From the NCBI GenBank assembly GCA_030386875.1, contig CM059575.1:17012293-17076292 (forward strand): a stretch of DNA of 64,000 nucleotides, in the 5' to 3' direction. The translations under genes and the position numbers were made by a program. Under the pieces are notes generated by a model that searched no databases, was not told the origin of the DNA, and saw only the letters and a list, made by a program, of their open reading frames with translations. This DNA comes from Morinoia aosen. Taxonomy: Eukaryota > Arthropoda > Malacostraca > Amphipoda > Talitridae. Shown here piece by piece: positions 2,873 to 54,739 of the stretch (the stretch's first letter is position 1; each line of letters starts with the position of its first letter).

Positions 2873-3205
2873 TCTAATCTCGCAGGATTTCTACACCGCC
2901 CAGCCCTCTCCCTCCACCTCCAACCAGCTACAGCACCACCTCCAAGCAGCCACAGAAATGTTAGATTAAATTAATTTAGGTTAGGTTAAGTTAAGTTAAG
3001 TTAGGTTAAGAGGTTAGGTTAAGTTAGGTTAGGTTGGGTAAGGTTAGGCCAAGTTCAGTTAGTTTAAGGTTAATTTAAAAAAGTTAAAAAATGCCTGTTT
3101 TGCGCGAGATGGAATTGGTGCGAATGGCAACCTCAGTAGCTGCTCGGAGGTGGAGGGAGAGTGGTGGGCGGTGTAGAAATCCTGCGAGCTTGGACCAAGT
3201 GCGGC
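2862..3205. repeat. Inverted repeat with a telomere-like loop
   Basis: Arms 2862-2931 and 3136-3205 are inverted copies: CGCAGGATTTCTACACCGCC on the left is matched by its complement GGCGGTGTAGAAATCCTGCG on the right, and CTCTCCCTCCACCTCC by its complement. The spacer holds the TTAGG-like array. Confidence 0.85.
2976..3052 (+). repeat. Degenerate TTAGG/TTAAG interstitial telomere-like array
   Basis: Roughly a dozen units of TTAGG and the variant TTAAG in tandem. TTAGG is the ancestral arthropod telomere motif, so this is one argument for an arthropod source. The array lies inside the GC-rich inverted repeat and is too short and degenerate to be a telomere. Confidence 0.8.
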
Positions 3206-3235
3206 CGGGGCCGGGGCCCCGGTCGGTCTATAACA

Positions 3236-3897
3236 GCATCACGCGTTATAAAGATGAAATCACTGTGACAGCGATAACCGCGGGAACATCAGCGTACACC
3301 AGTGGGCACCAGCGTTTTGCTGCCATCCCAGTCCCGCGGCAGCGAAACAGGACTGAATTCTACCGCTTGAATTTCCCACCACAATTTTGTACGACAGAAC
3401 CTCCTCAACGCCAGTCCCTTCATCTCTTGCAGGCTGGTTGTCGTTACGTCCCAATCATCTATAGCACCTATTTCTTTTCCAGTATGATATGAGCTATGGG
3501 ACCATCCTTCAGTCTGCGTCACGAGATTCATGGTTTAAAAGTATTCTCAATTCCATACAATCTGCAATGCTCGTTTTGCATTTTCTGTAGACATATTTTT
3601 TAACGCTATCCCTCAATCGCCTTCTCGGGAATTAAACCAACTCGGGAATTGGGCCAACTTTAAAAGTTTCTTGATTAGGCTTTCACGCCTAACTGTGGTA
3701 AATCATGCAGACCCAGTTCCGTTCATTCGTTCCTGATGTCCAAATTGCCTTTACTATTCAGTACACAATTCACTTACAACAGATACACTCGAAGACTTGT
3801 GCTTATTTCTCCGACTCTTGTATGCTCTCTCTGCTATTTCCTATCCCGCTCGACGATATTATAGGATATTGTGTACATTCAAACATACTCTGGGCAG
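3236..3897. other. Intronic sequence before the first placed exon
   Basis: No exon, RNA gene or clear repeat is seen. Short open frames on both strands near 3250-3530 overlap each other and look like chance. Confidence 0.45.
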
Positions 3898-4008: not shown

Positions 4009-5369
4009 GTGAGTGTACAACGAAGCCTCCACTCAAGTAATGCTTAGTGAGGCAAGGACAACATATTCAAATATTATTATGAATTGAAAGCAAGATATTG
4101 TTGAAAGCATATTGCTGGTTTGGATTTTATGCACACAAGTAAAGCACTTCATACAATTCCTAAATTCACATTTCTACCAGCAATACAACTTTTTCCTCTG
4201 CTATGTGAATTAAAACTGCTAAAAAGACTAAACTTTCAATAGCTTTTACGCGATACTAAGCGGTTGCAATTACTTCAAAGAGAAAACTAGGACATTAACA
4301 CCGCATTAACATCTTCTTGACGAATTGAGTTGCTTGAGATTATTATTATTTATTTTTTTTTTGAATACAAAGTCAGACATTTTTTATATTTTCTAGACTG
4401 ATTAACTCGTAATATTTATGTGAAAAAGTGCAACTGATTTCTTCATGCTCGTCAATCATAATAAATTAGAGGCAGGAAGGAAACTTAAAGTTGAGTAATA
4501 AAATAAATTATGTTCTGCTAAAATGACCCTAAAATTCTGCATTCAATAAACGTGAGTTGGAAATATTTTCTGAATGCAAACTACGAATCATCGTTTGAAC
4601 TCATGGTAGATTTATTTCTGATGTGGCATGTGTACCTGCCAAATACAATTCGCAGGCCTGTAGACTACCTTTATCAAACGAATAAATAAGGCTACGAGGC
4701 AGCCCAGGCACCAATAATTTGATAGTAATACTGTGCTGCTCAGCGTCATCATTTCACTTCATCGCTCCGATTTAACTGTAATGAATCAACAGAATTCTCG
4801 TCAACAGCTGTTTGAATAAAGAGTTTTTGCTGTTGTGTTGTATTCGTTAATTTTATTTTAAAACTTTCCTCACTCTTATGCTATTTAGGAAATTTAGATT
4901 AACTCCTCATCGTTCTTCATCTTCATCAATTTAAGCAATAAATTACGAGCGAAATGAAAGCAAAAGCACTCTTTCATGTGAAATGAAAGACTCATTTTTT
5001 TCTTGGATTTTTGCTTCGTACACGCTCTAAGAGATGCTCAACTAATTGTTTCATCTTGTTTTTTCATGCGATTTACGAACGATCCTTATGTCTTTAATAT
5101 GTATCAGTTAAACATGCAAGATAGCTGATATTGCCTAGGCAGCATTGCAGACCGGACGCATCTTCTTGCATCAATGACGCTGTTCGTCGTGGGTCAAAGA
5201 ACTACTGTGGAAACAGTAGTCTATCTGAATGGTCGATCTCATTACTCTTATCCATTTAACTTTTCATTTGAATCATTTGGAGGAGTGTCTGGTTACTTAT
5301 ATAATTTTCTTGGAATAAAACAGTGATACCTAGCAATCTAATTTAATGCCGTGTTTTTCTTCGTTGCAG
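4009..5369. other. Intron
   Basis: AT-rich intron from donor GTGAGT to acceptor TTCGTTGCAG. I see no other gene or strong repeat in it. Confidence 0.6.
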
Positions 5370-44745: not shown

Positions 44746-44975
44746 GCTCTTCAAGGTCGCCAGCCTTGGCTTACAGAGAACTATCTTGCTATTGAAGGTT
44801 CCCTGTCATGACTTTCAAGAGAACCATATTGCTCTTCAAGGTCTCCAGTCTTGACTTTCAAAAGAACTATCTTGCTCTTCAAGGTCTCCAGTCTTGACTT
44901 TCAAGAGAACCATATTGCTCTTCAAGGTCTCCAGTCTTGACTTGCATAAGAACTATCTTGCTCTTCAAGGTGAAA
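44746..44975. repeat. 43-bp minisatellite
   Basis: Units beginning GCTCTTCAAGGTCTCCAGTC start at about 44746, 44788, 44831, 44874, 44917 and 44960. The inner copies are nearly identical. Confidence 0.92.
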
Positions 44976-50716: not shown

Positions 50717-50836
50717 TTCCAGGACATCCTGAAGCCGAACTACAACAGCGTCGACTTCACTGAGGTCGAACTGCCTGCCGCCAACGGCAACCTCGAGCTG
50801 GACGAGCCCCGTTACAACCACTCAACTCTCATGAGT
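50717..50836 (+). CDS. CACNA2D: Alpha-2/delta exon: KPNYNSVD motif
   Basis: 40 codons, phase 0 at both ends, acceptor GTCTGCCACTCAG and donor GTAAGT. FQDILKPNYNSVDFTEVELP matches RKPNYSSVDLSEVEW of alpha-2/delta-3. The rest, AANGNLELDEPRYNHSTLMS, is more variable and has the sequon NHS. Confidence 0.96.
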
Positions 50837-52566: not shown

Positions 52567-52612
52567 TGACTCACTATTTCCGGAATGGATCGTGGAACGT
52601 TCATCCGGAATG
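52567..52612 (+). CDS. CACNA2D: Alpha-2/delta exon, 46 nt
   Basis: Phase 1 in, phase 2 out, acceptor GTGCTTTCCAG and donor GTAAGT. With the borrowed base it reads VTHYFRNGSWNVHPE and shares its final tryptophan codon with the next exon, matching the family pattern that ends in HPxW just before YC. NGS is a sequon. Confidence 0.93.
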
Positions 52613-53924: not shown

Positions 53925-54425
53925 TGAGTTTAGGTTTACTACGTGTGTTCTGGCAGTTACCACAAGATTTTGCTAACTATACTGGCCGTGTGCCTCGGCA
54001 GGGTGTACTGCCAGTACAAGTACGAGAAGTTTACGTATACTAAGTGTTTTCTGGCAATTACTACACGACGTTGCTAACTACTGACCGTGTGCCTCGGCAG
54101 GGTGTACTGCCAGTACAAGTACGAGAAGTTTACGTATACTAAGTGTGTTCTGGCAATTACTACACGACGTTGCTAACTACTGACCTTGTGCCTCGGCAGG
54201 GTGTACTGCCAGTACAAGTACGAGAAGTTTACGTATACTAAGTGTGTTCTGGCAATTACTACACGACGTTGCTAACTACTGACCTTGTGCCTCGGCAGGG
54301 TGTACTGCCAGTACAAGTACGAGAAGTTTACGTATACTAAGTGTGTTCTGGCAATTACTACACGACGTTGCTAACTACTGACCGTGTGCCTCGGCAGGGT
54401 GTACTGCCAGTACAAGTACGAGAAG
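53925..54425 (+). repeat. 99-bp tandem array duplicating a 3' splice site and exon start
   Basis: Five acceptors of identical form (TGTGCCTCGGCAG) end at 54001, 54100, 54199, 54298 and 54397, exactly 99 bp apart. Each is followed by GGTGTACTGCCAGTACAAGT and ACGAGAAG, the start of the next alpha-2/delta exon, and preceded by TTGCTAAC, a good branch-point sequence. Only the last copy continues into a full exon. A more diverged unit (about 53925-54001) seems to be the founder. The four earlier copies reach an in-frame TAA within about 25 codons. Confidence 0.95.
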
Positions 54426-54555
54426 CCCTTCGGGGCGCCGTACCTGGAGACGCCAGAGTCGCTCCTCCTCCACTTCCTGAGCAGAGCGCGGATGCAGGGC
54501 TGGAAGTGGCGGTCCACACGGACCATCCCTCCCACCAACCCTGACAAGGATTCCT
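54398..54555 (+). CDS. CACNA2D: Alpha-2/delta exon after the acceptor array
   Basis: One base completes a tryptophan codon, then 52 codons plus one base (phase 2 in, 1 out), donor GTGAGT. It reads VYCQYKYEKPFGAPYLETPE, SLLLHFLSRARMQGWKWRST and RTIPPTNPDKDS. The pattern YCxYxYE...TPEexLLHFLxxxxxxGWKW is that of arthropod alpha-2/delta. The acceptor at 54397 is used because only this copy continues beyond EKYEK-like sequence into open frame. Confidence 0.95.
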
Positions 54556-54739
54556 GTGAGTCTCTCCCGCCGCGCATCAATTACAAATCAGAAAATTTGA
54601 GATGCTTCTAAATAATCTATAATTCGGCTTAGGGATCCTATAAATTCTAGCTTCACTCACAGTAGAATACGTGTGAGAGTGACTGCCTAATTATTGAGTG
54701 TTGAATTCGACTAACTCTCTCGTTTCTAACCCACGGCAG

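Follow-up and report, generated by a model that had tools for sequence, protein, structure and literature searches.

Tandem copies of a predicted intron-exon boundary

The window analyzed here, a stretch of 64,000 nucleotides from contig CM059575.1 of the Morinoia aosen assembly GCA_030386875.1 (positions 17,012,293 to 17,076,292, forward strand), contains a five-copy tandem array that runs up to and into an exon of a predicted alpha-2/delta gene (Table 1). With a period of 99, 5.0 copies, 96% matches, and a score of 896, the array at 53927-54425 is the top-scoring of the 32 rows that TRF returns for the window. In each unit, about 71 nt from the end of the intron precede the first 28 nt of the exon, the boundary between the two being predicted from sequence and reading frame, and a branch-site-like TTGCTAAC ends 22 to 24 nt ahead of the exon start. 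The first-pass annotation had described five tandem copies of an acceptor plus exon start, and TRF and the comparison of units confirm both the copies and their coordinates; its statement that only the last copy (54398) leads into the full exon holds as well.

The 28 exonic bases show no difference among the five copies. Units 2 to 5 differ pairwise at 0 to 2 of 99 bases, with units 3 and 4 identical in all 99 compared columns, and the intronic tail of unit 1 shows nine substitutions and a 2-base gap relative to unit 5. Of the 103 aligned columns, only the first 58 contain differences between units 1 and 5 (nominal P = 0.0022, for a cut that was picked post hoc), and relative to units 3 and 4, unit 1 shows one further difference, at -14. 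Copy-specific variants are found in the tail of unit 1, in unit 2 at -53, and in units 3 and 4 at -14. Compared base by base, the five acceptors are the same from -13 to +28, position -14 is G in some and T in others, and at -17 unit 1 carries G in place of A, so that the earlier description of all five as equally good applies from -13 to +28 but not at these two positions. As read from the sequence, the duplication joint has two bases (AG) in common.

A genome-wide DNA search, in which the best candidates only were scored, places the array at one position in the genome. The real exon with its flank is likewise found at one place, the four 36-base partial matches to it being the decoys, and no second copy or haplotype of the locus that would allow a comparison of copy number was found in the assembly. 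The window holds a second multi-copy array at 44746-44971, with a 43-bp unit, 5.3 copies, and 84% matches (TRF).

Table 1. Positions of the array, its units, and neighboring exons in the window
Position	Strand	Feature	Basis
50717..50836	+	Upstream exon, starts FQDILKPNYNSVDFTEVEL..., part of the alpha-2/delta match	Sequence
52567..52612	+	Upstream exon, 46 nt, ends CCG GAA TG, then GTAAGT; donor pairing with the array	Sequence; in frame into array exon
53927..54425	+	Five-copy array, 99-bp unit	TRF, unit comparison
53927..54029	+	Unit 1: diverged intron tail; TTGCTAAC 53970-53977; decoy acceptor, predicted exon start 54002	Sequence, unit comparison
54030..54128	+	Unit 2: TTGCTAAC 54071-54078; decoy acceptor, predicted exon start 54101	Sequence, unit comparison
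54129..54227	+	Unit 3: TTGCTAAC 54170-54177; decoy acceptor, predicted exon start 54200	Sequence, unit comparison
54228..54326	+	Unit 4: TTGCTAAC 54269-54276; decoy acceptor, predicted exon start 54299	Sequence, unit comparison
54327..54397	+	Unit 5 intron tail: TTGCTAAC 54368-54375; presumed real acceptor CTCGGCAG	Sequence, unit comparison
54398..54555	+	Full exon, 158 nt, predicted start 54398, entered after two codon bases; donor GTGAGT at 54556; reads VYCQYKYEKPFGAPYLETPESLLLHFLSRARMQGWKWRSTRTIPPTNPDKDS	Sequence, frame

Host gene and reading frame

On the similarity of its encoded protein, the host gene is predicted to encode a voltage-gated calcium channel alpha-2/delta subunit. When exon pieces are joined and the array exon is included, 13 of the 17 sequences listed as matches are solved alpha-2/delta-1 chains (best E = 0.00037); the match covers query residues 3 to 98 of 180, that is, the part upstream of the array exon. 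A Cache-domain match of the exon pieces is weak and falls below the cut-off, and the array exon searched alone gives no relevant match; we place it in the alpha-2/delta gene because the joined frame is open and because of its position. A PF08473 match marks an exon that shares contig and strand with the array and lies about 25 kb farther downstream, and when a paralogous alpha-2/delta exon was sought by PF08473 search, a single match was obtained, in the array's own gene region. Five exons of the gene, with approximate ends, were tested for boundary-spanning repeats, and the array exon is the only one to carry them, none being found in the other four.

The donor at 52612/52613 reads ATG, then GTAAGT. 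If the donor at 52612 were joined to acceptor 1, 2, 3, or 4, the frame would run through nine normal and 15 foreign codons (24 in all) into a TAA that lies inside the TTGCTAAC of the next unit, in agreement with the early stop that had been proposed for these acceptors.

Tandem arrays and exon edges across the genome

Tandem arrays are common in the sampled parts of the M. aosen genome. Across 200 kb, taken as 20 stretches of 10 kb with one each on contigs C1 to C20, we find 10 arrays with a period of 50 to 200 and at least three copies, which account for 1.6% of bases, and arrays with a period of at least 20 and at least two copies cover 10.5% of bases in the same 200 kb. At L007:1623-2082, for instance, a 92-bp unit is present in 5.0 copies (97%).

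The edges of exons were surveyed in 60 exons (10 ion-channel and 50 kinase) hand-picked from two lists of matches (79 and 135 entries) and chosen before their sequence was seen, with contig C27 left out; the last 40 were added once the first 20 had given two TRF hits, and some of the 60 share a gene. Automated self-comparison finds a direct repeat across the edge of the match in 9 of the 60 exons (L036, L046, L047, L060, L062, L078, L083, L091, and L092). The same self-comparison gives 117 hits in 600 random windows (Fisher P = 0.49 versus 9/60), although this control is uneven, three of its 20 source loci giving 70 of the 117 hits. The frequency with which tandem arrays cross an exon edge in this sample is close to that of random positions. 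A tenth exon, L038, was found by TRF, run in this survey on the exons alone, so that the resulting figure of 10/60 includes one exon without a matching control. Repeats lying wholly within the match occur in 1 of 60 exons versus 64 of 600 random windows (P = 0.021).

The layout of the window array recurs at L060, which we take from its motif to be a HIPK-like kinase (it was fetched by Pfam family) and where the fetched piece holds three decoy acceptors, with an exon-start copy that is long after the first two and short after the third. L083 is also an acceptor-side example, with one upstream copy that has lost its AG. The donor side is repeated in L036, L038, L047, L062, L078, L091, L092, and L046, the last being the weakest example, with little exon inside the repeat. 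In L036, presumably a sodium-channel-like exon (again from its motif, and fetched by Pfam family), a 28-bp unit is present in 10.9 copies and GGTGGGT occurs ten times including the exon's own donor, and in L078 the donor motif (ATGGTGAG or ATGGTAAG) occurs seven times including its own within a 42-bp unit. The donor of L038 is repeated in a 37-bp unit with 2.9 copies, one of which has AT for GT. The decoy site is kept in L036, L060, L062, and L078, and it is lost in L083, in L091, in this one copy in L038, and in one of two copies in L047.

Array differences between genomic copies

We observe differences within arrays for two exons that are present in the assembly more than once. L060 has a second copy, L094, which lies 77 kb away in the opposite orientation and carries an identical 278-nt exon; the fetched pieces of both hold three decoy acceptors, and the units in between differ. 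L094 starts within a further exon-start copy at a point where L060 has unrelated sequence, and this partial edge copy suggests that the array of L094 is probably longer than that of L060 by one unit or more. A comparison of L078 with its copy L093 over 710 bases gives three differences, none of them outside the array. Both pairs may be either haplotypes or gene duplicates. Exon matches whose scores are equal or nearly so also come in pairs on one contig, for example at C7:21.59/22.28 Mb, C2:33.43/37.47 Mb, and C17:41.80/44.49 Mb, of which the C17 pair aligns with 707 of 710 bases in agreement; such pairs appear as from unmerged haplotypes or recent duplications.

Origin of the array and choice of acceptor

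We interpret the array as probably a minisatellite that straddles a 3' splice junction by chance, with the last acceptor most likely the one in use. Objects of this kind are known from amphioxus as mirages, that is, minisatellite-like duplications of intron-exon boundaries, in genes that include the globins BflGb6 and BflGb9, Adh3, troponin C, and PGBD5; in BflGb6 the mirage consists of the intron 3' end and exon start in units of 150 to 160 bp, present six or three times depending on the haplotype (PMC3087553, PMC3902484). Amphioxus mirages homogenize inside and diverge at the edge (PMC3087553), and the M. aosen array likewise consists of tandem intron-exon boundary copies that are nearly uniform in units 2 to 5 and diverged in the tail of unit 1, a combination that would fit repeat turnover as described there. 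Unlike them, the M. aosen array belongs to an arthropod and to a predicted alpha-2/delta gene, and its unit measures 99 bp. In the literature that we searched by title and start of abstract, we found no report of mirages in an arthropod, which is not proof of absence. In human segmental duplications, variable tandem repeats that cross exon-intron boundaries have been compared between paralogs and can form novel introns (PMC2812944); the M. aosen array crosses such a boundary too, but a single locus was found, and there is no sign of a novel intron.

The array would have begun with a tandem duplication in which exon sequence ending GAGAAG was joined to intron sequence starting TTTA, with AG common to both, and subsequent unequal exchange, conversion, or slippage would have multiplied and homogenized the copies, so that divergence persists only at the outer edge of unit 1. 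From the resulting row of acceptors the spliceosome most likely takes the last, at 54398. Exon-side recognition would favor this site because each decoy is followed by no more than 28 nt of exon, and its use would give an overlong exon of 257 to 554 nt instead of 158. In beta-globin constructs with duplicated 3' splice sites, where the upstream site is followed by 14, 55, or 205 nt of exon, the distal site is reported to be used exclusively, and very inefficiently (PMC5389562). Like the array, the constructs place identical acceptors one after another, with a short stretch of exon behind the first; they differ from it in that they carry two copies and were spliced in nuclear extract, whereas M. 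aosen has five natural copies. For amphioxus mirages, RT-PCR suggests undisturbed splicing (PMC3087553), and a second account reports no aberrant mRNAs (PMC3902484). We infer the use of 54398 from the distal-site splicing in beta-globin, the amphioxus mirages, and the 28 nt of exon per decoy, and by the same analogies the splicing machinery most likely ignores the decoys. A Drosophila study, according to which a donor and an acceptor suffice to define an intron (PMC2891723), counts against this reading. Occasional use of a decoy would add the 15 foreign codons and the stop, and such mRNA would probably be destroyed.

Alternative explanations

The first-pass annotation had left three readings side by side, namely, neutral expansion, a competition device that lowers productive splicing, and an assembly artifact, and neutral expansion is the best supported of them, given that arrays are common, that their frequency at the sampled exon edges is close to random, and that the kinase acceptor arrays differ between copies. 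Under the second reading, the four decoys would hold U2AF and U2 and divert some transcripts into stop-containing mRNA, with array length acting as a dial on alpha-2/delta output. We consider this unlikely, even though each decoy is intact between -13 and +28 and is followed by an in-frame TAA, and even though a duplicated 3' splice site has been reported to bind a second U2AF35 more often and the beta-globin duplicates to splice very inefficiently (PMC5389562). The unchanged acceptor and exon-start half of unit 1, next to its diverged upstream half, points the same way and is also compatible with selection acting on the first acceptor. Homogenization, however, explains the identity of the decoys, sampled exon edges are crossed at close to the random rate (9/60 versus 117/600), some decoys have decayed, as at L038, L083, and L091, and amphioxus mirages are said to make no aberrant mRNA (PMC3902484). 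The fold of the RNA adds nothing to the case, since no unusually stable structure was seen: the array is not more stable than shuffled sequence (z = 0.66), and nine pieces folded against shuffled sequence give z between -0.26 and 1.38, leaving a structural switch or a device of competing RNA structures without support from folds. A candidate fold that pairs the unit 1 intron arm with the 28-nt exon start was rejected (z = -0.21 for tail 1 plus the real exon).

That the true copy number is lower, or even single, and the array an artifact of assembly is very improbable in our view. The assembly has other oddities, such as bacterial-type genes on C27 and same-scoring exon pairs on several contigs, and one amphioxus mirage was misassembled in a draft (PMC3087553), but the array is just 499 bp long, its copies carry private variants, and the genome is full of similar arrays, some of them at other exon edges. 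Just as little credence is due to the idea of a nascent gene structure, in which the repeats would be a step toward a new intron or a longer exon, as has been suggested for the globins of amphioxus. A model of intron gain from mirage repeats has been proposed (PMC3087553) and tandem duplication is a described route to new introns (PMC3443670; PMC2891723, the latter on intron gain through duplication of coding sequence in Drosophila), yet in the present frame every retained unit would bring in an in-frame stop.

Relevance of duplicated splice junctions

As a chance minisatellite across a splice junction, the array is a known kind of object, and the locus itself is ordinary; the part worth following is the density of junction duplications, as seen in a limited sample. 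The 10 of 60 examined exons with a tandem-copied junction are natural experiments in the choice between near-identical splice sites, and tandem-copied junctions are raw material for intron gain. A more far-reaching proposal, which we regard as unlikely, is that junction duplications, at about one sampled exon in six, make splice-site choice depend on exon-side context and not on the sites themselves, with array length a heritable, fast-changing dimmer of productive splicing in many genes, including alpha-2/delta.

Additional observations

Positions 468-663 and 2567-2699 of the window apparently contain one 21-bp minisatellite unit in inverted orientation, about 1 to 2 kb apart, and apparently the same inverted pair is present in L016 at 3167-3349 and 4122-4304. 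These inverted pairs resemble a mobile element between inverted repeat arrays.

On contig C27, a stretch at about 55.4-72.9 Mb contains all listed ABC-transporter (19) and MFS (10) matches, on long open frames; for ABC transporters 19 of 573 first-look candidates were scored, for MFS 9 of 344. This stretch looks like bacterial sequence taken into the assembly.

Eight units of TTAGG, which we take to be the arthropod-type telomere repeat, give 15,049 overlapping matches in the genome versus none for the reversed control, and some of these matches lie less than 20 kb from a contig start. A perfect TTAGG array is also found inside a 57-Mb contig, at C1:29645296-29645520.
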